From a virus, in IMG/VR virus record IMGVR_UViG_3300042320_000567, positions 1 through 45,032 of that record: a DNA stretch of 45,032 bases; one strand, given 5' to 3'. This document shows, piece by piece, positions 1,140 to 38,500 of the stretch. The notes under the pieces are model-generated. The model was not told the DNA's origin and did not search any database. It worked only from the letters and a program-made list of their open reading frames with translations. The position numbers and the translations under genes were made by a program. Numbering within the stretch: the stretch's first letter is position 1; each line of letters begins with the position of its first letter.

Positions 1140-2497
1140 TTGACTTTGCTCCACTGTCCTTTGGTTTGGCGTGCGGCTAAGACGTGCTTTGCCCATGCGA
1201 CTGGATTTTTGTATCCCCGCTGCTGACCTAGTGCGATCAACTGCTGCAGCGTTTGAGCGCCGCTTTGCTCACGCCGCTTGGCGCGCATGGCTAGCTCCAC
1301 CAGCTCCCCATCCACCTGCTGCAGCTCGCGTGCCTCGGCAGCGAACATATGCCCACACTCACCGCATTGCTTGGCCTGGCTGGCCATGGCGGCAAAGCAA
1401 CTGGGGCACACCTTGACGCTGGGTGCTTTCTCCCGATCCCGCTTGCGCTCGCCGTCCAAGCTCCACTCGCGCGGCTCTAGGTGATGGCCAAGCCGGAGCG
1501 TATTGCCGACGTGATCCAGCACCACTGCTGCAGCCTTGCCGGGCGATGGCCTAAGGCACCGGCCGATCATCTGCAGGTGCAGGCTGGTGGATGCAGTGGG
1601 TCTGAGCAGGATGCAGCCGCCGACTGATGGAACATCGACGCCCTCGCCGATCAGTGCGCAGCTGGTGAGCACCTTGATCCGGCCAGTGCCTAGCGCCTGC
1701 AGCAGGTCACGCCGCTGCTCGCTAGTCATGCTGCCGTCAATACTGGCCGCGGCGATGCCTGCTGATTGGAAGAGTGCTGCCACTGCTTCCGCGTGCGCCA
1801 CAGAGCAGCAGAACGCGATTGCAGTCTGGCCCGATAGGTGCTTGCGGTAGTGGCCTAGGCAGTCGCCCATGATCGTGCCGACACGGTGCTCCGCCTCACG
1901 GGCGTCAAAGTCACCCATCCGCTTGCGCAGGCCGGTGGTGTCAAAACCCGGTGGCGCTAGCACCTTGGCCGCGGCGAGGTAGCCGTTGTCGGTTAGCCAG
2001 GCAGCGCTGGGACCTTCCACCATGACCTGATAGTGCTCGCCAAGGCCGCGGCCGTCGAGCCTGATCGGGGTTGCGGTGACGCCCAGCAGATGCGATTGGT
2101 GGAAATGCTCCAGCGTTTTGGCCCAGGTGCCGGCATTGCTGTGGTGGGCCTCGTCGATGATCACCAGCTGAAAGAAATCAGGCGGCAGTTTGTGCAGCCT
2201 GCGGGCAAGCGTCTGGACGCTGGCAACCTGCACTGCTGCGGATAGATCCATGCCGCGGTTGGCGGCGATCACGCCATGCGGCATCGGCAGTGAACGGCAG
2301 GCTTGATCCAGCAGCTCCTGCCGGTGAACGGCGATCAACACGCGGTTGCCCTTGCGAGCAGCGGATTGGGCGATGTGGCTGAAAATCACCGTCTTGCCGC
2401 CGCCGGTCGGCAGCACTGCCAGCACCTTGCGGTGGCCTAGCTGGTATTGCAGGCGGATGGCGGTGATCAGCTGTTGCTGGTAGGGGCGGAGGTTCAT
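1136..2497 (-). CDS. Superfamily II DEAD/DEAH-box helicase
   Basis: A 453-residue DNA helicase of the SSL2/type III restriction helicase class (COG1061-like). Motif I PTGGGKT is at residues 30-36, motif II DEAH at 115-118, motif III TAT near 141, and motif VI QMIGRCLRPS in the second RecA fold. A C-terminal zinc-binding stretch has CPSC and CGECGH. The ATG at 2497 follows GGAG by eight bases and overlaps the upstream stop as ATGA; an upstream in-frame start would add 53 residues unlike the family. It probably unwinds or branch-migrates phage DNA in replication or recombination, acting with the VRR-NUC nuclease downstream in the same unit. Confidence 0.9.
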   Translation of the reverse strand: MNLRPYQQQLITAIRLQYQLGHRKVLAVLPTGGGKTVIFSHIAQSAARKGNRVLIAVHRQELLDQACRSLPMPHGVIAANRGMDLSAAVQVASVQTLARRLHKLPPDFFQLVIIDEAHHSNAGTWAKTLEHFHQSHLLGVTATPIRLDGRGLGEHYQVMVEGPSAAWLTDNGYLAAAKVLAPPGFDTTGLRKRMGDFDAREAEHRVGTIMGDCLGHYRKHLSGQTAIAFCCSVAHAEAVAALFQSAGIAAASIDGSMTSEQRRDLLQALGTGRIKVLTSCALIGEGVDVPSVGGCILLRPTASTSLHLQMIGRCLRPSPGKAAAVVLDHVGNTLRLGHHLEPREWSLDGERKRDREKAPSVKVCPSCFAAMASQAKQCGECGHMFAAEARELQQVDGELVELAMRAKRREQSGAQTLQQLIALGQQRGYKNPVAWAKHVLAARQTKGQWSKVK

Positions 2498-2742
2498 AGA
2501 GGCAGCTCCAATTGCGTGCCATCTGCAGGTGTTCCGTGCATGGCAATTTGGGCCATAGTCACGGCACGGCGTTGCCGCTCGTATGCAGGCCGCGCATAGC
2601 CCAGCTGGTAAAGGTGCAGATCGTTCTGCAGCAAGGCAATGGCGACAGCTCGCCATGACGGCGCGCGGCCTGACGCAGCTACTTTGGCCGGCACCTCATC
2701 TGGAATCTCGTGCGAATAACAACGGGCTTTCCACGTGCGCAC
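2494..2742 (-). CDS. Small stand-alone protein resembling the DUF3440 C-terminal region of PAPS-reductase-like proteins
   Basis: About 82 residues with the signature RTWKARCYSHEIPDEVP, then RAPSWRAVAIALLQNDLHL. The second part recalls the tail of IbrA/DUF3440 proteins, and a similar NSMVTSWKRFAITMLKNDH occurs at the end of the PAPS-reductase-like gene upstream. Its presence as a separate protein suggests a partner or regulator of that enzyme. The start is uncertain: GTG at 2742 keeps the overlap with the upstream gene to 47 bases, while ATG at 2826 would give 110 residues and 131 bases of overlap. The end couples to the helicase start (ATGA). Confidence 0.65.
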   Translation of the reverse strand: MRTWKARCYSHEIPDEVPAKVAASGRAPSWRAVAIALLQNDLHLYQLGYARPAYERQRRAVTMAQIAMHGTPADGTQLELPL

Positions 2743-3121
2743 GTATTCCGAGACTCTGGCGGTAGCGCATCTCCCAGGCGCGAATGGCTCGATCCGCTTG
2801 TTGGTTTGCCAATGTCCGTTGCTCATCGGTCAAAAGTCCCCATGCTTGTCTAATGATGTCTTCAGGGCATCGAAGGGCCAGCGCGCAGGCTGCGTGCCCG
2901 ATCCATGCTTTGCGGTTGAGGTTGTAGTCAGTCAGTGCATTGATGCAGCTGTTGGGCCATTCCACGGTGACCCGTTGCATGTAGCGCCCGTAAAGGCGGT
3001 GATTGCCGGTGAAGATCTGTGCGCGATACAGAGCAATGCGTCGATTTGGCACATCGCCCCACATGTTGTAGCCGATCTCTTCCCAAGTATCAATGGGCAA
3101 CCAGATCCTTTTGAGCTTCAC
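2696..3121 (-). CDS. Conserved hypothetical protein of the IbrAB-like cluster
   Basis: A 141-residue protein. GTG at 3121 has AGAGG nine bases upstream and lies inside the end of the EctC-ParB gene (32-base overlap). It opens with KRIWLPIDTWEEIGYNMWGD and has a central VEWPNSCINALTDYNLNR and a C-terminal helix with TDEQRTLANQQADRAI. I recall proteins of this look beside phage IbrB-like genes but know no name or activity. It has many conserved-looking aromatic residues and no membrane segment. The tight overlaps on both sides suggest that it works with the PAPS-reductase-like and ParB-like proteins. Confidence 0.7.
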   Translation of the reverse strand: MKLKRIWLPIDTWEEIGYNMWGDVPNRRIALYRAQIFTGNHRLYGRYMQRVTVEWPNSCINALTDYNLNRKAWIGHAACALALRCPEDIIRQAWGLLTDEQRTLANQQADRAIRAWEMRYRQSLGIRAHVESPLLFARDSR

Positions 3122-4031
3122 GTTCGAGATCCTCTGTGATGTTGTCGATCTGCTCAACGTCCCATGCCTTGCTGAAATCCTTGCCAAGGAATAGCGAGGC
3201 TAGACCGGTCACCTGTTTCAGGCGCAACAGCTCATCAGGGCTCATGCCAATATGCTTGCAAATCCATGCATCGCCTTTGCCCATCTCGATCAATTCGGCA
3301 ACGATCACGCTCATCAGTTCGATGTTGTGTGAACCACGAGCGCGGTTGTGACGGATGGTTGACGCCATGCGGTCATGGAGCTCCTTGCGGAGTACAACCA
3401 CTGGCAAGCGGCCACCTTCGCGTTCACGGATGCGTTGGCTGTTTTTTAGCGTCAGGTATCGATGAAAACCGTCAACGACCACATAAAGGTCACGCTCGGC
3501 ATCATGCACGACAACGACAGGTTGCGTGTAACCATCTTCCCAGATGGATGTTTCGAGTAGCGCCATTTCAGGCGGCGCCACAGAGTTGGGGTTGTAATCG
3601 TTGGCGGTAACTTTCTCAATAGGAATACTGCGAACAGAATAGACCGGGGATCGCCAAGGGTAAGAGTCGTTCTCGTCATGGAGTTCATTGCCTTTAAGGG
3701 GTGGGTTGAATACGCAGATCAACGTGGTGGGCTCTAAGGCTTCAAACGTGTGAGCATCGTGCTTGTCAAGCACGTAGGTCACGTCAGGGCCAATCGCGAT
3801 GATTTCTTGCGTGGTTTCATTGATCAGCAGACCTTTGCCGCTGACGCAGTAGCACGTTTCAAGGTGGTGTTGATAGTGCCAGCGGTGCGGCTTGCCAGGG
3901 TGAATAACGGTTTTAGTCATGCTGTAGCCCATGCCGTCGGTTTCGACGACAAGCCGATGACTGGTGAAACCACCACGTGGGCATTGCACAACGCGGTCAT
4001 CAGGAAGTTGTGCGGCGTTCAGGATCTTCAT
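3090..4031 (-). CDS. Fusion of an ectoine-synthase-like (EctC) cupin and a ParB/IbrB-like domain
   Basis: A 313-residue two-domain protein. Residues 1-125 match EctC over its whole length, ending VFNPPLKGNELHDENDSYP as the family does. The literature iron ligands of EctC (Glu57, Tyr85, His93) correspond here to E58, Y86 and H94. The substrate-contact positions Thr40, Cys105, Phe107, Glu115 and His117 correspond to T41, C106, F108, E116 and H118, a constant offset of one. Residues about 130-240 are ParB-like with NPNSVAPPEM, DGYTQPVVVV and VVVDGFHRYL, and a helix-turn-helix-like end follows. ATG at 4031 overlaps the upstream stop (ATGA); no Shine-Dalgarno is seen, so coupling is likely. EctC closes N-gamma-acetyl-diaminobutyrate to ectoine; whether this domain does so, or senses or modifies something else, is unknown. 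No ectA or ectB is present. Confidence 0.85.
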   Translation of the reverse strand: MKILNAAQLPDDRVVQCPRGGFTSHRLVVETDGMGYSMTKTVIHPGKPHRWHYQHHLETCYCVSGKGLLINETTQEIIAIGPDVTYVLDKHDAHTFEALEPTTLICVFNPPLKGNELHDENDSYPWRSPVYSVRSIPIEKVTANDYNPNSVAPPEMALLETSIWEDGYTQPVVVVHDAERDLYVVVDGFHRYLTLKNSQRIREREGGRLPVVVLRKELHDRMASTIRHNRARGSHNIELMSVIVAELIEMGKGDAWICKHIGMSPDELLRLKQVTGLASLFLGKDFSKAWDVEQIDNITEDLEREAQKDLVAH

Positions 4032-5347
4032 TTGGCGGAACGGTTGAGGACTTGGCTGTACTTGCGTTGGATTGATCTCTGGCGGCGCTGCTGCTCTTGC
4101 GTTGGCGCCAGGCCCAAGTATTTGCAGGTGTGGTCGTTCTTGAGCATTGTGATAGCAAACCTCTTCCAAGATGTGACCATGCTGTTGTGGCATGGCAGAT
4201 CATCAAGGTGGTCAGGCGGCACCTTGATCACTACGCGGCGCAAATTGTTGCCGCCGTGGCGCGTGGTGCCATTGATGTAAAAGCGAATGCCAATACGGCC
4301 AAGAGCTTCAATAATGGCATCAGGAAGACCGCGCCCCACCCTGCCCCAGTAGCGGATTGACTGGATGAAGCGCTGCTTAAAATTTGCGCTTGACTGATCC
4401 GGCAAGGTGGCCAGCAGGAACTTCACAAAGGATTTCCAAGTGTGGCCTGCGGGCAGCTTAAAGGATTTGTAATCAAGCTGTTTGCCGTAGGTAGCCATGA
4501 AGTTAGCACCGCCAACTCTCGCGCAAAGCCTCGCCCAGACCTGCGGGTCGATTACCCGATACATAGCAAGACTGGATTTGGACTCTGACATAAACGGAGA
4601 AGCAACCCGCATCTTTTTGATAGGAATGCCAGCCATGTAAAACACGTCATAAAGGTTGTTGTAATCCCATCCAAATTTGGCGTTAGCGGTCCAGATGTCC
4701 TCTGTGCGCCAGTCATAGATCGGATAGCAGTTGTAGGTATGCGCCGTGTTTTTCTTGGTCCACATGCGGCCAAGCATGGTCTCTTTCTCTTGATTCAGGA
4801 TGGCCCGAAAACGGTTGAGCGATTCAACGGTGCGAATGCCGATCAAGTTTGCGCAAGGCTCGCCATGGCTGTACCACTCCGCAAACATGTCCCAGAAAGT
4901 GGCGTAATCCATGTTCTCGATGAACAGGTCGCCAAAGGGATGGTTTTGGAGATTGACGATGTAATCCTGCTGCGGCATGGGGCGAATCCAGCGGTGACGG
5001 TCGGCTTCGCCCCAGCACTGCCAGTCAATTTCGTAGGAGGAAACGGTGCAAGGCAGGGTGATGGGCAGGCAGCACCAATAGATGTCAAGGATGTCCCGGT
5101 TGGCTTGGAGGATGCGATGCATGAACTCCTCGCTATGGGTGTAATTGGCCTCGTTGTCCATAATCTGAACGCCAATTTTGATCGGCAGCTTGCGCTCTCG
5201 CACGTAGTCGCAAACAAGATTCAGAAGAACTCCGCTGTCCTTGCCACCAGAGAAGGAGACGTACACACGGGTAAAATGCTGAAAGATAAAGTCGAGCCGC
5301 TCAATAGCGGCGTCGTAAACATTTTGCTCTAAATAGGTTCTGCTCAT
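4028..5347 (-). CDS. PAPS-reductase-family ATP pyrophosphatase, IbrA/DUF3440-like
   Basis: A 439-residue protein with the PP-loop SFSGGKDSG at residues 31-39, which binds ATP in PAPS reductases, DndC and related enzymes that adenylate a substrate. The C-terminal third is DUF3440-like (SMVTSWKRFAITMLKNDH). This arrangement matches IbrA, the partner of ParB-like IbrB in Escherichia coli, and an IbrB-like domain is indeed encoded by the next gene. I infer activation of a substrate by ATP, perhaps sulfur or another group transfer to a nucleic acid or nucleotide; the true substrate is unknown. The ATG at 5347 overlaps the stop of the small gene upstream (ATGA). It is not expected to be a sulfate-assimilation enzyme, given its length and neighbours. 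Confidence 0.88.
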   Translation of the reverse strand: MSRTYLEQNVYDAAIERLDFIFQHFTRVYVSFSGGKDSGVLLNLVCDYVRERKLPIKIGVQIMDNEANYTHSEEFMHRILQANRDILDIYWCCLPITLPCTVSSYEIDWQCWGEADRHRWIRPMPQQDYIVNLQNHPFGDLFIENMDYATFWDMFAEWYSHGEPCANLIGIRTVESLNRFRAILNQEKETMLGRMWTKKNTAHTYNCYPIYDWRTEDIWTANAKFGWDYNNLYDVFYMAGIPIKKMRVASPFMSESKSSLAMYRVIDPQVWARLCARVGGANFMATYGKQLDYKSFKLPAGHTWKSFVKFLLATLPDQSSANFKQRFIQSIRYWGRVGRGLPDAIIEALGRIGIRFYINGTTRHGGNNLRRVVIKVPPDHLDDLPCHNSMVTSWKRFAITMLKNDHTCKYLGLAPTQEQQRRQRSIQRKYSQVLNRSAK

Positions 5348-5514
5348 GAGTTGGGTAGATACTCTTTTGTTACGTCTTGAATTTCAAGAAGATCGCAACC
5401 TTTGTATGATTTGGCAAAGCCAATCCGCAATTCCGCCTCAGTAGCGAATTGAGTGGTGTTAACCACGCATTTGCCCCAAGGGCGTTGGTAGGTGATTCGG
5501 TAAATAGGGTTCAC
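5344..5514 (-). CDS. Small hypothetical protein, first gene of the leftward cluster
   Basis: About 56 residues (NPIYRITYQRPWGKCVVNTT at the N-terminus, DLLEIQDVTKEYLPNS at the end), with no recognised family. It looks like a small beta-rich soluble protein. GTG at 5514 is preferred because the only longer option, TTG at 5544, lies inside the inverted repeat thought to be the divergent operator. No clear Shine-Dalgarno is seen for either. The stop overlaps the ATG of the PAPS-reductase-like gene by four bases, so the two are probably translated together. Confidence 0.6.
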   Translation of the reverse strand: MNPIYRITYQRPWGKCVVNTTQFATEAELRIGFAKSYKGCDLLEIQDVTKEYLPNS

Positions 5515-5530
5515 AAGCAGGCGCAGCCGT

Positions 5531-5597
5531 GGGGTGCCTTGCAACCTTAGCGACTTTGGCTAAGCTTGGCAAGCTTTCAGCCGAAGCCGTGCACCCC
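5531..5597. promoter_or_regulatory. Nested inverted repeat at the divergence point of the two transcription blocks
   Basis: The inner arms are CTTGCAACCTTAGC (5538-5551) and GCTAAGCTTGGCAAG (5559-5573), which pair with one mismatch and one extra base around a 7-base spacer. The outer arms GGGGTGC (5531-5537) and GCACCCC (5591-5597) pair perfectly. Weak -35/-10 pairs can be placed on both strands within it: TTGCAA, 16 bases, TAAGCT rightward; TTGCCA, 17 bases, TAAGGT leftward. It is a likely operator and divergent promoter, possibly bound by the ribbon-helix-helix protein encoded immediately to the right. The promoter assignment is weaker than the repeat itself. Confidence 0.6.
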
Positions 5598-5726
5598 ATC
5601 TCAGTTTTGTTCACGCCGCAACAGATGCAGTGGCTAGACCGGCAACGCGCTGCTGGCCTGTCCCGCAGCGCAGTAATCCGCCTTGTGGTTGAGGAAGCCA
5701 TGCGCCGCGCCAAGGAGTCCGAGTGA
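5589..5726 (+). CDS. Small ribbon-helix-helix (CopG-like) DNA-binding protein
   Basis: A 45-residue protein, the size of CopG, with a beta strand ISVLFTPQQ, then helix MQWLDRQRAAGL, a turn, and helix SRSAVIRLVVEEAMRRA. This is the ribbon-helix-helix pattern of dimeric repressors. I chose GTG at 5589; GTG at 5529 would add 20 residues encoded by the inverted repeat itself, which would be unusual. It is first in the rightward block beside the candidate operator, so it may repress its own and the divergent promoter. The stop overlaps the GTG of the primase gene (GTGA), preceded by AAGGAG. Confidence 0.7.
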   Translation: MHPISVLFTPQQMQWLDRQRAAGLSRSAVIRLVVEEAMRRAKESE

Positions 5727-7792
5727 ACCTGCGCGATGAGTTAAACCGCCTGCCCGATGGGTGGGGATACGTTGCTGTTGACGGCCAGAAGCGGCCGTAT
5801 CAACTCAAGTGGCAGGACAACCCACTAGATAAAGCCAGCCTGCAGGCCGAACTTGATTCCGGTCGCGCTCGTGCTATCGGTGTTTGCTGTGGTGTGCCAT
5901 CTGGTGGCCTGCTGTTCCTAGACCACGACGGCCGCAGCGCTAGCACCATCCTTCGCGACTGGGGTTGTCCCATGTCGTCGTTGCCGCGTTCGTGGACTGT
6001 TACCTCCGGTCGTGACGGCAGGTTTCAGGTCATCTACCGCGTACCAGAGGAGTATTGGCATGGCATCGCCACACGCAAATACAAGTCAGGTGTCACCGAC
6101 TCCGACGGCAAGCCCGAGCAGGTGGAGCTCCGTTGGACCGGCTGCCAGTCTGTTGTAGCCGGCGCGCACCCAACCACCAGCGGTTACCGCTGGGTAGCCA
6201 AATACAGCCCCGAAGACCTCGACCTAGCCGAGGCGCCGCTTTGCCTGATCGAGCGGATGCTTAAGCCAGTGGCCGAACCGGTGGTCTTGCCACCAGTAGC
6301 GCATGGCGCTGACGATGCCGCCCGGGCGCGTTCTTACCTCGAAGCCCTGGCCAGCAGTCGCGCTGATGACTACGACGACTGGCTAGCCGTTGGGATGGCG
6401 CTCCATAGCGTTGGCGATGACGCCTTGCTAGACGACTGGGAGCAGTGGTCAGCGCAGTCCGGCAAGCACAAGCCCAGTGATTGCCAGCGCAAATGGCGCA
6501 GCTTCAAGAAATCCGGCATCAGCCTTGGCACCCTTGGCGACATGGCCAAGAAAGACGGCTGGCGACCCCATCGGCGTGAGCCGCAGCGCAGGGTTGCGAC
6601 AGGCGGCGGCAGTGGTGACAGCGATGCCAATGCGCCGATCATCACGAAACCGGAAAAGCTGGAAACCGCAGAGCTATTGGCACTGCTACGCAGTCAAACC
6701 GATGAGATCCGCTACAACGTCTTCACCCAACAGATCGAAATCAAGGGCAAGGTCATTGATGGCGCCGACCGCTTTTACCTGAAGCTGGCAGAGATGGGCT
6801 ACAAGGTCGGCAAGGAGCTGGCTATTGACTGCCTTGTGCAGGTCGCCAACGAGAACCCCTACGACCCCGTAACCGAGTACCTGACCCATTGCGAGCAGCA
6901 CGTTCAGCCGGCTTACATCGACGGCCTTGCTACCGCATACCTTCGCCCAGAGGACCAAGGCGGTGAGACCACGATCTACGACGAGATGCTTAAGCGCACC
7001 ATGATCGGTGCTGTTGCTCGTGCCTTTGATCCTGGTTTCAAGCATGATACCGCTTGCGTGATCATGGGCGATCAAGGTGCATACAAATCCAGCTTCTGGG
7101 GCTGTTTGGGTGGTCCGTTTTACTCAGATGCGTTGGGTGACATCAGCACCAAAGACGACGTAATGGTGCTCCATCGGTCATGGATAATGGAATGGGCGGA
7201 GCTTGATCACATCACCAATCGCAAGCACGCTGGACAAGTCAAGGCGTTTTTATCGCAGGCGGTAGATCTGCTCCGCGTGCCATATGGCAAGGCTGTTGAA
7301 GCATTCCCAAGGCGTGGCATCATTGTTGGCACCACCAATAAAACCGCTGGTTTTCTTGTAGATGAAACCGGCAACCGTCGTTTTTGGGTGATACCAACAA
7401 CCCGCACACAGGTGGATCAAATCAATACCGCCATGCTCTTAATGGAACGTGATGCCATCTGGTCTGCAGCGGTTCATGCCTACCGCAACGGTGAAACCAG
7501 CCGGCTGCCGGCTGCCATGGAGCTTGCCGTTCAGCAGGAAAACGATGCCTACATGATCGAGTCGCCATGGCGTGCCGCCATCCTTTCCTACCTCGCTGAT
7601 CGCCGCAGCACTGACCTGCTGACCTCCGAGGAGATCCTCGCCAAGGCCATCCAGAAACCCATGGAGCGCCAGTCCAAGGCCGACCAGATGCAGGTGGCTT
7701 CGATCCTGAAGGAGCTGGGTTGGGCGAAACGCCGCGAATCGACCGGCAAGAGGCGCTGGTACTACCAGTTGGACGGCCAACATGCCGGCTAG
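5723..7792 (+). CDS. Primase-polymerase / D5-VirE-type replicative helicase
   Basis: A 689-residue multidomain replication protein. Residues about 5-175 form a bifunctional primase-polymerase (AEP) domain with LLFLDHDG as the metal-binding acidic motif. Residues about 195-285 resemble the PriCT-2 segment (DYDDWLAVGMALH, CQRKWRSFK). The C-terminal half is a VirE/D5-like ATPase with a Walker A GDQGAYKSS (about 449-457), a Walker B-like SWIMEWAELD, and the arginine-bearing NRRFWVIP. GTG at 5723 has AAGGAG five bases upstream. It should prime and unwind phage DNA; with no DNA polymerase seen in the genome, host polymerase III probably extends. Confidence 0.9.
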   Translation: MNLRDELNRLPDGWGYVAVDGQKRPYQLKWQDNPLDKASLQAELDSGRARAIGVCCGVPSGGLLFLDHDGRSASTILRDWGCPMSSLPRSWTVTSGRDGRFQVIYRVPEEYWHGIATRKYKSGVTDSDGKPEQVELRWTGCQSVVAGAHPTTSGYRWVAKYSPEDLDLAEAPLCLIERMLKPVAEPVVLPPVAHGADDAARARSYLEALASSRADDYDDWLAVGMALHSVGDDALLDDWEQWSAQSGKHKPSDCQRKWRSFKKSGISLGTLGDMAKKDGWRPHRREPQRRVATGGGSGDSDANAPIITKPEKLETAELLALLRSQTDEIRYNVFTQQIEIKGKVIDGADRFYLKLAEMGYKVGKELAIDCLVQVANENPYDPVTEYLTHCEQHVQPAYIDGLATAYLRPEDQGGETTIYDEMLKRTMIGAVARAFDPGFKHDTACVIMGDQGAYKSSFWGCLGGPFYSDALGDISTKDDVMVLHRSWIMEWAELDHITNRKHAGQVKAFLSQAVDLLRVPYGKAVEAFPRRGIIVGTTNKTAGFLVDETGNRRFWVIPTTRTQVDQINTAMLLMERDAIWSAAVHAYRNGETSRLPAAMELAVQQENDAYMIESPWRAAILSYLADRRSTDLLTSEEILAKAIQKPMERQSKADQMQVASILKELGWAKRRESTGKRRWYYQLDGQHAG

Positions 7793-8304: not shown

Positions 8305-8452
8305 ATCCATCACCCAGGCATTGGCTTACGCCCATGCCATCCGCGACAACGCACAGGACGACAGCCAGCCGATCCCGTTGGAACTCGTTGGTTCGTTTCA
8401 AGTTGATTGCGACGCCATCATCAACGCCTTATCCGAAGCTGCTGCACAATGA
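8240..8452 (+). CDS. Small hypothetical protein preceding the sliding clamp
   Basis: A 70-residue protein starting at ATG 8240 inside the previous gene and ending in an ATGA overlap with dnaN. The N-terminus is Ser/Gln-rich (SSQDSISIPAKQSP), followed by helix VINRLHESITQALAYAHAI and a second helix near the end. No family is recognised. The double overlap suggests that it is translated with the regulator and the clamp. A longer reading from 8180 would overlap the previous gene more and is less likely. Confidence 0.55.
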   Translation: MSSQDSISIPAKQSPVINRLHESITQALAYAHAIRDNAQDDSQPIPLELVGSFQVDCDAIINALSEAAAQ

Positions 8453-9495
8453 AATTCACCTGCTCACAGGCCGACCTGTCCCATGCTCTCCGCGCTGTAT
8501 CCCGCGCTGTAGGCACCGGGCGCTCTGGCCATCCGATCCTTGCTGGCGTACTCCTCGCTGCTGATGCCGGCGCCGTACGCATCACCGCTTACGACCTCGA
8601 CCTTGGCATCAGCACCGCCATCACCGCTGCTGTAAACACCGCTGGCGCTTGCGTGGTACCCCATCGGCTCCTGGCGGACATCACAGGCCGTCTGGACGCT
8701 TCTGAGGCGCTGTCGCTGGCTGTGGACGGTACACGCATCACGCTGACCGCTGCAGGCGGCTCCTACAGCCTCTCCGTGGCCTCTGCGGAGGATTTTCCTG
8801 CATTGCCCGTGGTGGATGCTGCTGCAGGCGCTGCTGTGGACCTCACAGCGCCATTGGCGGCCGTATTGCCTGCTGCTGCCACCGACGCGTCTAAGCAGCT
8901 GCTGACCGGCGTGCACGTCACCATCGCAAGCGGTGCCTTGCGCCTTGAGGCCACAGACGGCCATCGACTTGCCGTGCGTACCGCCGACACCGATGCCGCA
9001 GACCTCGACCTCGTGTTACCCGCTCGCACCCTGCAGCAGATCCGTCAGCCGGCCACCATCACCGCAGACAAGCATCAGGCCGCTATCGCCCTTGCTGATG
9101 GCACCATGATCGTCTCGCGGTTGCTGGATGGCATCTACCCCAACGTGCAAGCGCTGGTACCCGCCAGCTACGAGCACACGGCTACCGTTAGCCGCCTTGC
9201 CATGCTGGCTGCACTTGAGCGCGTAGCCGTCATTGCCGACAGCCACAACAGCGTCGTCAAGCTCACCACCAAAGCCAAGCGACTCACCATTGCCGCCGAG
9301 GCCGAAGCCAACAGCGGCTCAGAGTCCATTGCCATGGATGGCACGCTGCCCACGCTTGCCTTCAACGTGCATTACCTCATTGATGCCTTTAAGCATCTCG
9401 ACGGTGATACTGCTACTATCAGCGGCAACACCTCAACTACCCCTGTAGTATTTGAGCCTGGTCTTACACTGGTAATGCCAGTTCAGGTACGCTGA
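8449..9495 (+). CDS. dnaN: DNA polymerase III beta subunit (sliding clamp)
   Basis: A 348-residue protein with the three-domain clamp pattern: KFTCSQADLSHALRAVSRAV at the start, PILAGVLLAADAG in domain I, LLTGVHVTIASGALRLEATDGHRLAV in domain II, and a C-terminal TLVMPVQV corresponding to the usual MPMR end. It is slightly shorter than bacterial clamps (about 370-390). It encircles DNA and tethers the replicative polymerase. ATG at 8449 overlaps the upstream stop. A phage-borne clamp without a phage polymerase suggests that it recruits host polymerase III or other clamp-binding host proteins. Confidence 0.92.
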   Translation: MKFTCSQADLSHALRAVSRAVGTGRSGHPILAGVLLAADAGAVRITAYDLDLGISTAITAAVNTAGACVVPHRLLADITGRLDASEALSLAVDGTRITLTAAGGSYSLSVASAEDFPALPVVDAAAGAAVDLTAPLAAVLPAAATDASKQLLTGVHVTIASGALRLEATDGHRLAVRTADTDAADLDLVLPARTLQQIRQPATITADKHQAAIALADGTMIVSRLLDGIYPNVQALVPASYEHTATVSRLAMLAALERVAVIADSHNSVVKLTTKAKRLTIAAEAEANSGSESIAMDGTLPTLAFNVHYLIDAFKHLDGDTATISGNTSTTPVVFEPGLTLVMPVQVR

Positions 9496-35668: not shown

Positions 35669-36718
35669 ATGAGCAACTTCCTCGCTGCCGCCAAGTGGAC
35701 CGATAAGCAGGCGCCACAGCCACATCAAATTGCGGCGTGGAATACGGCATGGCAATGGCTCACCCTTGGGCAGCAGGCGGAATTCCTAGAAATGTTCCGT
35801 GCTGCACCGGTAATGCCTGCAGCGCCATGGCTTGAGCCAGCGCTCAAGGTCATCCGCGAATTTGAAGGCTTGCGGCTTGAGGCATACCGATGCCCAGCTG
35901 GCGTGCCAACCATCGGCTATGGCTCCACGCGGTTGATTGATGCACCAGTGCGCATGGGCGACAAGATCACGCAGCAGATGGCCGAGGAGCTGCTTTGCGA
36001 TCAAGTCGAAAACCTATTCGCCCCTGGCCTATTTGGCCTACTGCCTTTGATGAAGGCATGGAAACCCAATCAGCAAGCTGCGCTGGTGTCTTGGGCTTTC
36101 AATGTAGGACTTGGTGCCGTAGAGGAGTCCACGTTGCGCAAGCGGCTGGCGGCTGGCGAGGCGCCCAGCGTAGTTGTGCCAGAGGAATTGCCCAAGTGGG
36201 ATAAAGCTGACGGCAAAACGCTAGAAGGGCTGGCGAGGCGCCGTGCCGCTGAGGTGCGGTTATTTACTGGCAATCTTGAGCATCAACAGCAACCGGCCAA
36301 GTTGACGCCATCTAGTTCGTTTGCATCGCGCATCACGCCACACATCACGCTAGGTGAATTCGCATTGAACCAAGAGGCGCGGCGCTTTGATGCGCAGCAT
36401 CAAGTGAACACAGCGGCCGAGCTTGCTGCATTCATGGAGCGGGCACGGTCTGCATTTGGTGGCAAGCCTGTGATCATCACCAGCGGCTATCGGCCAGCGG
36501 CAATCAACCGATCAGTAGGTGGCGCCAGTAGCTCAGAGCACCTGTACAACGCGCCTAACGTGGGCGCCGTGGACTTTTACATCCAAGGCGTTGACATCAA
36601 TAAGCTGCAGGCATGGTGCGACAAGGAATGGCCGTATAGTCTTGGCTACGGCGCACCCAAGGGCTTTGTGCATCTTGGCATTCGCGCTGGCCGCCCTAAA
36701 GTCCGCTGGGATTATTGA
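35669..36718 (+). CDS. Endolysin with lysozyme (GH24) and M15 peptidase domains
   Basis: A 349-residue two-enzyme lysin. Residues about 50-205 are a T4-type lysozyme: the E-8aa-(D/C)-5aa-T signature is E66, C75, T81 (E66 in REFEGLRL, T81 in VPTIGYGST), the cysteine variant as in P21/P1-like endolysins. Residues about 225-349 resemble Peptidase_M15 (D-Ala/L-Ala carboxypeptidase type) with SGYRPAAINR, SSEHLYNAPN, GAVDF and FVHLGIR carrying the zinc ligands. It cleaves both the sugar chain and the peptide of peptidoglycan at host lysis. No signal peptide is seen, so it depends on a holin. Confidence 0.93.
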   Translation: MSNFLAAAKWTDKQAPQPHQIAAWNTAWQWLTLGQQAEFLEMFRAAPVMPAAPWLEPALKVIREFEGLRLEAYRCPAGVPTIGYGSTRLIDAPVRMGDKITQQMAEELLCDQVENLFAPGLFGLLPLMKAWKPNQQAALVSWAFNVGLGAVEESTLRKRLAAGEAPSVVVPEELPKWDKADGKTLEGLARRRAAEVRLFTGNLEHQQQPAKLTPSSSFASRITPHITLGEFALNQEARRFDAQHQVNTAAELAAFMERARSAFGGKPVIITSGYRPAAINRSVGGASSSEHLYNAPNVGAVDFYIQGVDINKLQAWCDKEWPYSLGYGAPKGFVHLGIRAGRPKVRWDY

Positions 36719-37233
36719 TGATCATTCCTGACCACGAGATTTGCCGCCTGTGCAAGCAACATGCAATGGTGGTGCCGTATAACGCAGAACTGCAGAACCC
36801 ATCATCCCTTGATGTGCTGCTCGGCGACAACCTAATGGTGGAAGTGGAGCACACTGCAGACCTGCAATTGCTAAGCATTGCGCACCATACAGAGGCGGAT
36901 CCTTACTGGCTGGCGCCTAGTGAGTTTGCGCTAGCTGAGACGCAGGAGTTTTTTAACCTGCCAGATCACATTGCCGCGCAGTTTGTACTGAAGTCCAGCC
37001 GCGCAAGGTCTGGCCTAGAGCACCTGCTTGCTGGATACTGTGACCCAGGCTGGCACGGCAGTCGGCTCACATTAGAACTACACAACAGCCGTCGTTATCA
37101 CAACATTGCATTGTGGCCCGGCATGAAGATTGGCCAGATGGTGTTTCATGCCATCGCTGGCACGCCAGAGCGCACCTATGCAGTAACCGGACGGTATAAC
37201 AACGATTCAATCGTCACTGCCTCGCGCGGATAA
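36718..37233 (+). CDS. dcd: dCTP deaminase (dUTPase superfamily)
   Basis: A 171-residue protein with the family marks NPSSLDVLLGDNL (28-40), SSRARSGLEH (93-102), CDPGWHG (108-114) and TLELHN (118-123, likely catalytic E120). It deaminates dCTP to dUTP, feeding thymidylate synthesis. A dUTPase or bifunctional role is possible within the superfamily. ATG at 36718 overlaps the endolysin stop (TGATG). Placing it after the lysis genes is unusual but seen in cyanophages. Confidence 0.85.
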   Translation: MIIPDHEICRLCKQHAMVVPYNAELQNPSSLDVLLGDNLMVEVEHTADLQLLSIAHHTEADPYWLAPSEFALAETQEFFNLPDHIAAQFVLKSSRARSGLEHLLAGYCDPGWHGSRLTLELHNSRRYHNIALWPGMKIGQMVFHAIAGTPERTYAVTGRYNNDSIVTASRG

Positions 37234-37387: not shown

Positions 37388-37627
37388 ATGATTGTGGAAC
37401 TATCAGTAGAGGATCAACTACGGATAGAAGGGCAGGCAAGAGCTGCCCTTGCCCATGATGACCCTAGCCAAGTGGCACATTTATGCGCGTCGCTGATTCG
37501 TCAAAATGCGTATCAATCTAAGCTAATCCAGCAGGCAACTGGTCATATTGCCAAACTAGAAATGGAGCAGTTTTTAAGCTGCTCCAAACCAAAGCGATGG
37601 TGGCAGCGACTGCTACGCCACCAGTGA
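37388..37627 (+). CDS. Small conserved protein at the end of the rightward block
   Basis: A 79-residue protein from ATG 37388: VELSVEDQLRIEGQARAALA, then SQVAHLCASLIRQNAYQSKL and a basic end. I recall similar proteins in T4-like cyanophages, unassigned. Other ATG codons at 37310 and 37370 would add sequence unlike this. Its end overlaps the end of the sigma factor gene by 15 bases (convergent). Confidence 0.6.
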   Translation: MIVELSVEDQLRIEGQARAALAHDDPSQVAHLCASLIRQNAYQSKLIQQATGHIAKLEMEQFLSCSKPKRWWQRLLRHQ

Positions 37628-38500
37628 TGGCTGCAGAATCAGCCTTAGCTTGCGTTGCGCACGTTGCGCACGCTGTCTGACGCGCTCTCTGCATACACCA
37701 AGATTGCGGCCAATTTCGGCATAACTTTCTGGTGTTTCACAGCCAATGCCATAGTTTCTACGCACAACATCCCTATCAAAGGGATCTAGGCGAAAAAAAG
37801 CCAGCTGCAGCTGCTCAACGCGCTCACAAATCTCTTCAGGGTTGTGGTCTTCATCAATGCCGTACTCGTCGGCAATCATGTCCAGTATTGTGCTACCATC
37901 TTCGGTGATCAGTGCATCTAGGCTTCGGTGTGGCCTATTGCGCTCCATCAGCATCAATAGCTCATCTGTTTTGATGTTGAGGATGTCGGCCACTTCGCGG
38001 ACAGTAGGCGTGCGGCCATTGGCTTGCGCAAACTCACGTTGGGTTTTGGCAGCAGCGTAAGTTTTCTCTAGCGCGTGTTGCGGCACTCGAATCAACCGCT
38101 CTTTGGTATCAATGGCGCGGGTAATGGCTTGGCGAATCCACCAGTAGGCATAAGTAGAAAACTTATACCCTTTAGTGCCGTCAAACATCTCCGCGGCACG
38201 ATGCAGGCCCAGTGCTCCTTCTTGGATCAAGTCCATTAGATCCATGTTGTTGGACTGCAGCCGGGTGACGTACCGCTTGGAGATATGAACCACCAAGCGC
38301 AAGTTGCAATTGATGATCATGTCACGCGCGCGAATGCCAACGCGGATCTCGCGTTGTTCTTGCTTGGTGCGTTCGCCTTTGGCGTCACGCAGCTCAAGGT
38401 ATCGCCGCACTTGACGCGACAGTTGAATTTCCTGCTCAGCCGACAGCAATGGATATCGGCCGATGGCGGTGAGGTACTGCTTGAACGAGTCGGGCGTCAT
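37613..38500 (-). CDS. RNA polymerase sigma-70 family factor, group 2-like
   Basis: A 295-residue sigma factor with regions 1.2 (SFKQYLTAIGRYPLLSAEQE), 2 (residues about 55-130, including GYKFSTYAYWWIRQAITRAI, the -10 recognition and melting part), 3 (about 135-210) and 4 (about 225-290, ending GRNLGVCRERVRQRAQRAQR for -35 recognition). Region 1.1 is missing, as in cyanobacterial group 2 sigma factors, which it resembles more than T4 gp55. Region 4.2 has RQRAQRAQRKL where RpoD has RQIEAKALRKL. It probably redirects host RNA polymerase to phage late promoters. It is the last gene of the leftward block, with its own 110-base upstream gap. Confidence 0.9.
   Translation of the reverse strand: MTPDSFKQYLTAIGRYPLLSAEQEIQLSRQVRRYLELRDAKGERTKQEQREIRVGIRARDMIINCNLRLVVHISKRYVTRLQSNNMDLMDLIQEGALGLHRAAEMFDGTKGYKFSTYAYWWIRQAITRAIDTKERLIRVPQHALEKTYAAAKTQREFAQANGRTPTVREVADILNIKTDELLMLMERNRPHRSLDALITEDGSTILDMIADEYGIDEDHNPEEICERVEQLQLAFFRLDPFDRDVVRRNYGIGCETPESYAEIGRNLGVCRERVRQRAQRAQRKLRLILQPSLVA

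Follow-up and report, generated by a model that had tools for sequence, protein, structure and literature searches.

A viral record of 45,032 nucleotides (IMG/VR record IMGVR_UViG_3300042320_000567, positions 1 to 45,032, analyzed over its whole length and referred to below as the window) contains four overlapping minus-strand genes (positions 2494–5347) that constitute a unit: a gene for an IbrA-like PP-loop enzyme, a gene for a fusion of an ectoine-synthase-type domain (EctC) with a ParB domain of the IbrB type, a gene for a conserved protein of 141 residues (p141), and a gene for a detached copy of the DUF3440 tail. The four genes move as a module between distinct phages, and in close relatives of the window their place is taken by DNA methyltransferases. 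It is proposed here, with moderate confidence, that this mobile cassette of the IbrA/IbrB kind is a DNA-marking system. DNA marking is the simplest reading of a module that, in each of two phage backbones, trades its position with methyltransferases, has genes of replication and recombination around it, and combines a PP-loop enzyme using ATP with a ParB-fold partner and an iron cupin of a ring-closing family.

Conservation and movement of the four-gene unit

Relatives were collected by scanning viral contigs with the fusion, which gave 80 loci, and with p141 and EctC alone, which gave overlapping sets. The 223 viral loci fetched include many repeat fetches of one contig by different queries, most relatives are metagenome fragments, and the contigs are not independent samples; distinct ParB nucleotide sequences number 82, of which 73 have all five domains, both counts including a few phage records. 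The order IbrA, EctC-ParB, p141, tail is found on a single strand in 212 of the 223 loci. The exceptions lie mostly at contig ends, and in two loci IbrA has been relocated to the end of the block. Conserved synteny, the absence of which an earlier note on this DNA had listed among the things that would count against its reading of the block as a candidate modification or regulatory system, is thus strong.

In 25 contigs, identity to the window averages 95.6% for IbrA and 95.7% for EctC-ParB, and 47% for the adjacent helicase; nucleotide similarity starts near position 5320, and in many of those contigs it stops at about 2470. Because the enzymes are ~96% identical while the adjoining helicase is only ~47% identical, the module must have been exchanged between distinct phages, with the helicase as a neighbor and nothing more. 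The helicase was considered as a part of the system and rejected on the same drop in identity, and also because it is present in loci that have no cassette. The earlier note had counted both the helicase and a small protein beside IbrA among the members of the set; both lie outside the conserved unit, as do a 162-residue protein and VRR_NUC. Within the unit purifying selection acts on all four genes, the median ratio of nonsynonymous to synonymous substitution rates (dN/dS) versus relatives being 0.038 for IbrA, 0.044 for EctC-ParB, 0.15 for p141 (which lies in an overlapping frame) and 0.077 for the tail copy (0.031 outside its overlap).

Among cultured phages, the cassette is carried by Mycobacterium phages Gaia and Nebkiss and by Pseudoalteromonas phage XCL1123. 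XCL1123 encodes EctC and ParB in two neighboring frames instead of one, and so does L088, a contig bearing phage-like genes that was binned as a Planctomycetota genome; L088 was also the one match when 84,980 bacterial and archaeal species were searched with p141. The tblastn-derived p141 frames of five loci (L066, L068, L075, L076 and L077) contain a stop codon, which may reflect assembly error, wrong extension or real decay. IbrA relatives are more widespread, occurring at the sensitivity used in no fewer than 215 records of phages and 594 of plasmids. The plasmid relatives (L162, which is NZ_CP040994.1, and 593 others), many of them from Klebsiella and E. coli, are often labelled merely as PAPS reductase or DUF3440 protein.

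An exchangeable slot shared with DNA methyltransferases

Scans with the helicase and with VapE turned up phages that are related to the window but do not have the cassette, and methyltransferases were detected using three query sequences together with Pfam checks on selected frames. In backbone 1 (the VapE–helicase interval) 61 distinct slot sequences were classified. Cassette-type slots comprise 16 EctC cassettes and two EctC-less ones (L237 and L325), the latter consisting of a ParB-p141 fusion and a short IbrA without EctC or detached tail. Methyltransferases occupy 29 slots, 28 of the N6/N4 type (in most cases as fusions with an SF2 helicase) and one of the MT-A70 type; the remaining slots hold an HNH endonuclease only (three), an unknown protein of 342 residues (three) or an unknown protein of 168 residues (one), or are short, empty or undetermined (seven). 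Cassette and methyltransferase occur together in none of the 61 slots (18 versus 29). Backbone 2 has a helicase with about 47% identity to the one in the window; of its 80 loci, 14 carry a cassette and 18 a helicase-methyltransferase gene at the equivalent place, and again none of the 80 has both. The no-overlap probabilities for the two backbones are 3.6e-7 and 0.019, values that ignore relatedness and the one-insert bias of a single slot.

The exchange can be followed among near siblings of the window. The flanks of L237 are 99.5% and 98.6% identical to those of the window, and its slot contains the EctC-less IbrAB-p141 system; one near-identical phage lineage thus bears two different IbrAB systems. 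L238 has flanks of 94% and 85% nucleotide identity with a methyltransferase between them, and L239 has flanks of 93% and 86% around an empty site of about 0.2 kb. Since the same slot in close relatives holds DNA methyltransferases, the suggestion in the earlier note that the gene set could modify phage DNA gains indirect support.

None of the 16 long cassette contigs has an N6/N4 methyltransferase, with all nine slot-methyltransferase contigs positive as controls and two of eight tested contigs with neither element in the slot having one elsewhere; no D12-type methyltransferase was found. Replication and recombination genes flank the cassette. The window also encodes a DNA polymerase sliding clamp (8407–9495, plus strand) and a dCTP deaminase (36715–37233, plus strand), and a sliding clamp adjoins the cassette in L088 as well.

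Other slot contents were also recorded. A family of 342–354 residues (L270:2857-3885, L308, L323, L414:4867-5931 and L458), with no significant Pfam match and one weak IS110 transposase-like match, fills the slot in both backbones. HNH endonucleases, of the HNH-AP2 or another type, are found in the slot by themselves or next to the methyltransferase (L274:6315-7004, L281:6438-7004 and L304), and they may drive the exchange of slot content. The small protein is present in backbone-1 slots with IbrAB-type systems, whether of the EctC or the EctC-less kind (L237:2403-2552), is found in none of the backbone-1 slots without such systems, and is absent from backbone-2 cassettes; it is possibly an accessory or leader gene.

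Gene block and properties of the encoded proteins

All of the genes named in the earlier note (IbrA-like, EctC-ParB, 141-residue, DUF3440-like, helicase and small protein) are real and lie where it had placed them (Table 1), the cassette genes running leftward between two flanking genes. The IbrA-like and EctC-ParB genes meet in an ATGA junction; a longer open frame from 4193 had been a candidate for the fusion gene and was replaced by the start at 4031, given the ATGA overlap with the IbrA stop. The p141 gene overlaps the EctC-ParB gene by 32 nucleotides, and the tail-protein gene overlaps the p141 gene by 131 nucleotides (2696–2826, minus strand, two frames), with the first Met of the tail gene retained in 25 of 25 aligned relatives. 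ATGA junctions are also found between the tail gene and the helicase gene (helicase start at 2497) and between the small-protein and IbrA genes. The best start of the small protein is at 5514, about where the part conserved in relatives begins. Far from the block, a phage RNA polymerase sigma factor is encoded at 37613–38500 on the minus strand (phrog_351, E 5.6e-74).

Table 1. Cassette genes, fixed flanks and slot in the window
Feature	Position	Strand	Description and basis
IbrA-like enzyme, 439 residues	4028..5347	-	PP-loop (SGGKDS) adenine-nucleotide hydrolase domain and DUF3440; Pfam/PHROGs, alignment, AF2 model
EctC-ParB fusion, 313 residues	3090..4031	-	Ectoine-synthase-type iron cupin (residues 1-128) and IbrB-type ParB/Srx (residues 129-295)
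p141, 141 residues	2696..3121	-	Conserved, predicted all-helical; GTG start
Detached DUF3440-tail protein, 110 residues	2494..2826	-	hhalign to IbrA C-terminus; alignment
Small protein, 56 residues from GTG 5514	5344..5514	-	Accessory, outside core
RadD-like SF2 helicase, 453 residues	1136..2497	-	Fixed slot flank, outside cassette
Primase/VapE-like helicase	5723..7792	+	Other fixed slot flank
Exchangeable slot	2498..5746	.	Whole content between fixed flanks replaced in sibling phages

The IbrA-like enzyme matches DUF3440 (PF11922, E 1.4e-53), PAPS_reduct (PF01507, E 1.2e-8) and, in PHROGs, phrog_2302 (E 2.1e-109). Its PP-loop motif SGGKDS is retained in IbrA relatives, one of which has SAGKDS, and its motifs are shared with enteric IbrA. 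No invariant cysteine column exists in 29 IbrA proteins including enteric IbrA, the best being C408 (28/29) and C93 (26/29). An AlphaFold2 (AF2) model of the enzyme has a moderate pLDDT of 69.5, and only its PP-loop half was interpreted; for this half the best match is the PAPS domain of FAD synthase (Z 13.7 over 179 residues, root-mean-square deviation 3.9), followed by APS reductase, ATP sulfurylase and FMN adenylyltransferase, with PAPS reductases matching also. On the modeled fold, adenylyl transfer would fit IbrA at least as well as sulfur transfer. A PDB sequence search with IbrA alone returned no match, and PADLOC gave weak DndC/BrxP matches for IbrA and, apart from helicase matches, none for the other genes. 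The 110-residue tail protein, described in the earlier note as a stand-alone DUF3440-like protein, is indeed a relative of DUF3440 but aligns solely with its C-terminal tail (hhalign probability 96.5, E 7.5e-10).

In the fusion protein, the EctC part matches Ectoine_synth of Pfam (E 2.6e-36), exceeds the cut-off of the NCBIfam ectoine synthase subfamily (132.5 versus 128 bits) and aligns with solved ectoine synthases (E 6e-23); the fusion matches phrog_2159 (E 6.5e-78), and ParB_N (PF02195) is found in it at E 1.3e-4, slightly under the cut-off (22.4 versus 26.3). Active-site residues were compared in 20 fusions using the numbering of the P. lautus ectoine synthase (PMC6344544). The iron ligands Glu-57, Tyr-84 and His-92 are present in all 20 and are invariant too in two separate EctC frames, and Ser-23, Arg-25, Thr-40, Tyr-52 and Phe-106 are likewise retained in 20 of 20. 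Trp-21 is replaced by Phe in every fusion, and Asn-38 by Thr (18/20) or His (2/20); both residues are conserved in ectoine synthases and contact the substrate (PMC6344544). Because the two changed residues touch the substrate while the iron ligands remain, the residue pattern suggests that the EctC domain is a working iron cupin with a substrate unlike that of ectoine synthase. The surroundings are not those of an ectABC operon, the neighbors being IbrA, ParB and p141 in all loci with enough sequence. Among 50,697 phage records EctC is confined to this cassette apart from MT835761; that record (MT835761.1, L161) was rejected as phage evidence, as its EctC adjoins an EctB-like gene and resembles a bacterial ectoine operon.

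The ParB part has 54 positions invariant with IbrB of E. coli phage and Klebsiella, including DG.HR and TIRHNRARG.H, and gives weak profile matches to Noc, ParB, SbnI and free serine kinase. The kinship with IbrA/IbrB that the earlier note had put forward is borne out by the domain matches and by motifs held in common with both enteric proteins. The AF2 model of p141 is all-helical (pLDDT 91), and fold searches with it gave no usable match (best Foldseek E 2.8, best VIA-align Z 3.5), which does not show that the modeled fold is new. p141 was also tried as an IbrA relative and rejected (hhalign probability 1.5). In phage contig L237 it is fused to ParB, which suggests that p141 and ParB work together.

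Possible function and relation to known systems

The target, chemistry, order of steps and protective effect that we infer for the cassette would be as follows. By analogy with the reactions of their families, the IbrA PP-loop enzyme would activate a group with ATP (adenylation), and the ectoine-synthase-type iron cupin would then eliminate water to form a ring, acting on a compound that resembles the substrate of ectoine synthase without being the same. The IbrB-type ParB domain would bind nucleotide and/or DNA and couple the reaction to its target, and p141 and the detached DUF3440 tail might be non-catalytic adaptors, which is a guess. The product would mark phage DNA, substituting for a DNA methyltransferase as protection against restriction. 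DNA marking is favored by the intact active sites (SGGKDS in IbrA, the Fe ligands E/Y/H in EctC, and ParB motifs as in enteric IbrB), and ParB-like partners occur in known DNA modification systems (DpdB and DndB; PMC12839542).

Several observations weigh against DNA marking. A C5 cytosine methyltransferase is present elsewhere in three of the 16 long cassette contigs (L016, L095 and L009). A slot with room for one insert makes its occupants mutually exclusive in any case, and with HNH endonucleases or unknown proteins among them it may be a place that takes up optional genes of any kind. The literature searched (preprints and most subscription papers fell outside it) reports no DNA modification for this cassette, and the only biology reported for IbrA/IbrB, as Sandt 2002 is cited in PMC10434257, is the activation of prophage eib genes. 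As a separate observation, the C5 methyltransferase of L016 appears directly after the helicase. A more far-reaching proposal, that the cassette makes a new DNA base modification in which a cysteine-free PP-loop enzyme adds an ATP-activated group and the iron cupin closes the ring, and that the whole IbrA/IbrB family of phages, plasmids and enterobacterial chromosomes consists of DNA-marking enzymes and not of transcription regulators, is tentative and appears doubtful.

The enzymes could instead modify a host regulator, as the earlier note had allowed, or a phage regulator or RNA, and thereby alter expression, as has been inferred for the action of E. coli IbrA/IbrB on eib genes. Membership in the IbrA/IbrB family is firm, IbrAB has been described as an eib gene activator (in the citation of Sandt 2002 just mentioned), and E. 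coli ybdNM sits in a regulated operon (PMC9068703); such a role is nevertheless unlikely, given that the cassette substitutes for DNA methyltransferases in its slot and is located among replication genes, and that autonomous movement between phage backbones suits a self-contained function better than a network-tied regulator. It is rather improbable, too, that the cassette acts in phage–host conflict by producing, changing or degrading a nucleotide or metabolite and leaves DNA unmarked. Small molecules are indeed the substrates of EctC and of the enzymes that IbrA most resembles in structure (FAD synthase, ATP sulfurylase), free serine kinase and SbnI are among the ParB-fold relatives, and a slot that takes methyltransferases and HNH genes could serve such conflict in general; however, EctC is fused to, or translated with, the ParB/IbrB domain in nearly all relatives, and the cassette has no known signaling enzyme.

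Phosphorothioation of DNA in the manner of Dnd/Ssp, with sulfur taken from the host, is highly improbable. The PP-loop domain has a weak similarity to DndC (E 1.8e-7; E 8.9e-5, far under the cut-off), but the sulfur route lacks an invariant cysteine in the 29 IbrA proteins and leaves the ectoine-synthase domain without a role. The earlier note had seen no cysteine desulfurase and had judged a plain Dnd system a poor fit, and both judgments hold: PF00266 (aminotransferase class V) is absent from the 45-kb record with 14 of 14 controls positive, host supply being possible, and there is no DndB match; DndE gave no match either, but no control genome gave one. Least probable of all is an auxiliary metabolic gene whose EctC domain makes ectoine for a salt-stressed host. 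The NCBIfam score above its cut-off and the intact iron site would agree with it, but EctA and EctB are not adjacent, the substrate-holding Trp-21 and Asn-38 are replaced in every fusion compared, and every true phage EctC found belongs to this cassette.

No biochemical function of IbrA/IbrB was found in the literature searched, though the pair was described in 2002, and the swapping of the cassette with methyltransferases in sibling phages offers a concrete, testable function for this family; the cassette also connects orphan ectoine synthases with phage biology and may disclose a new DNA base confronting restriction enzymes and sequencing. The cultured carriers Gaia, Nebkiss and XCL1123 allow a direct test. 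In the same literature the cassette as a system is undescribed, no paper connects ectoine synthase to the modification of phage DNA or to PAPS reductase, and Rakesh 2024, on phosphorothioation, mentions neither Ibr nor DUF3440; the database record of Gaia gp104 is already annotated as 'ectoine synthase/ParB multidomain protein'.

Comparison with known systems places the cassette as follows. Like IbrA/IbrB (E. coli ECOR-9, ybdN/ybdM in K-12, and phage and plasmid homologues), it has a PP-loop and DUF3440 enzyme beside a ParB-domain protein, but unlike the enteric phage and plasmid pairs examined, which are without all three, it adds the EctC fusion, p141 and the detached tail. Mycobacterium phage Gaia (gp103-106) and Pseudoalteromonas phage XCL1123 carry the same cassette type, with IbrA proteins 65–69% identical to that of the window and, in Gaia, one extra inserted gene. 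Microcystis phage Mwe-JY13, Pseudomonas phage Amjad_SA and contig L237 (the ParB-p141-IbrA type) share IbrA, ParB and p141 but have neither EctC nor the detached tail. Ectoine synthase EctC (5ONM, 5BXX) shares with the cassette its sequence family, iron ligands and most active-site residues, and differs in that the cassette has the Trp-21 and Asn-38 replacements, the ParB fusion and no ectA or ectB. Like the cassette, Dnd/Ssp has a PP-loop enzyme, and a ParB-like partner is known from Dpd and as DndB, in these cases in DNA marking (PMC12839542); unlike Dnd/Ssp, the cassette has no desulfurase match, no DndB match and no invariant cysteine. Judged by its genes, the cassette is a variant of IbrA/IbrB enlarged by the EctC fusion, p141 and the tail copy, and is neither a Dnd/Ssp system nor an ectoine operon.

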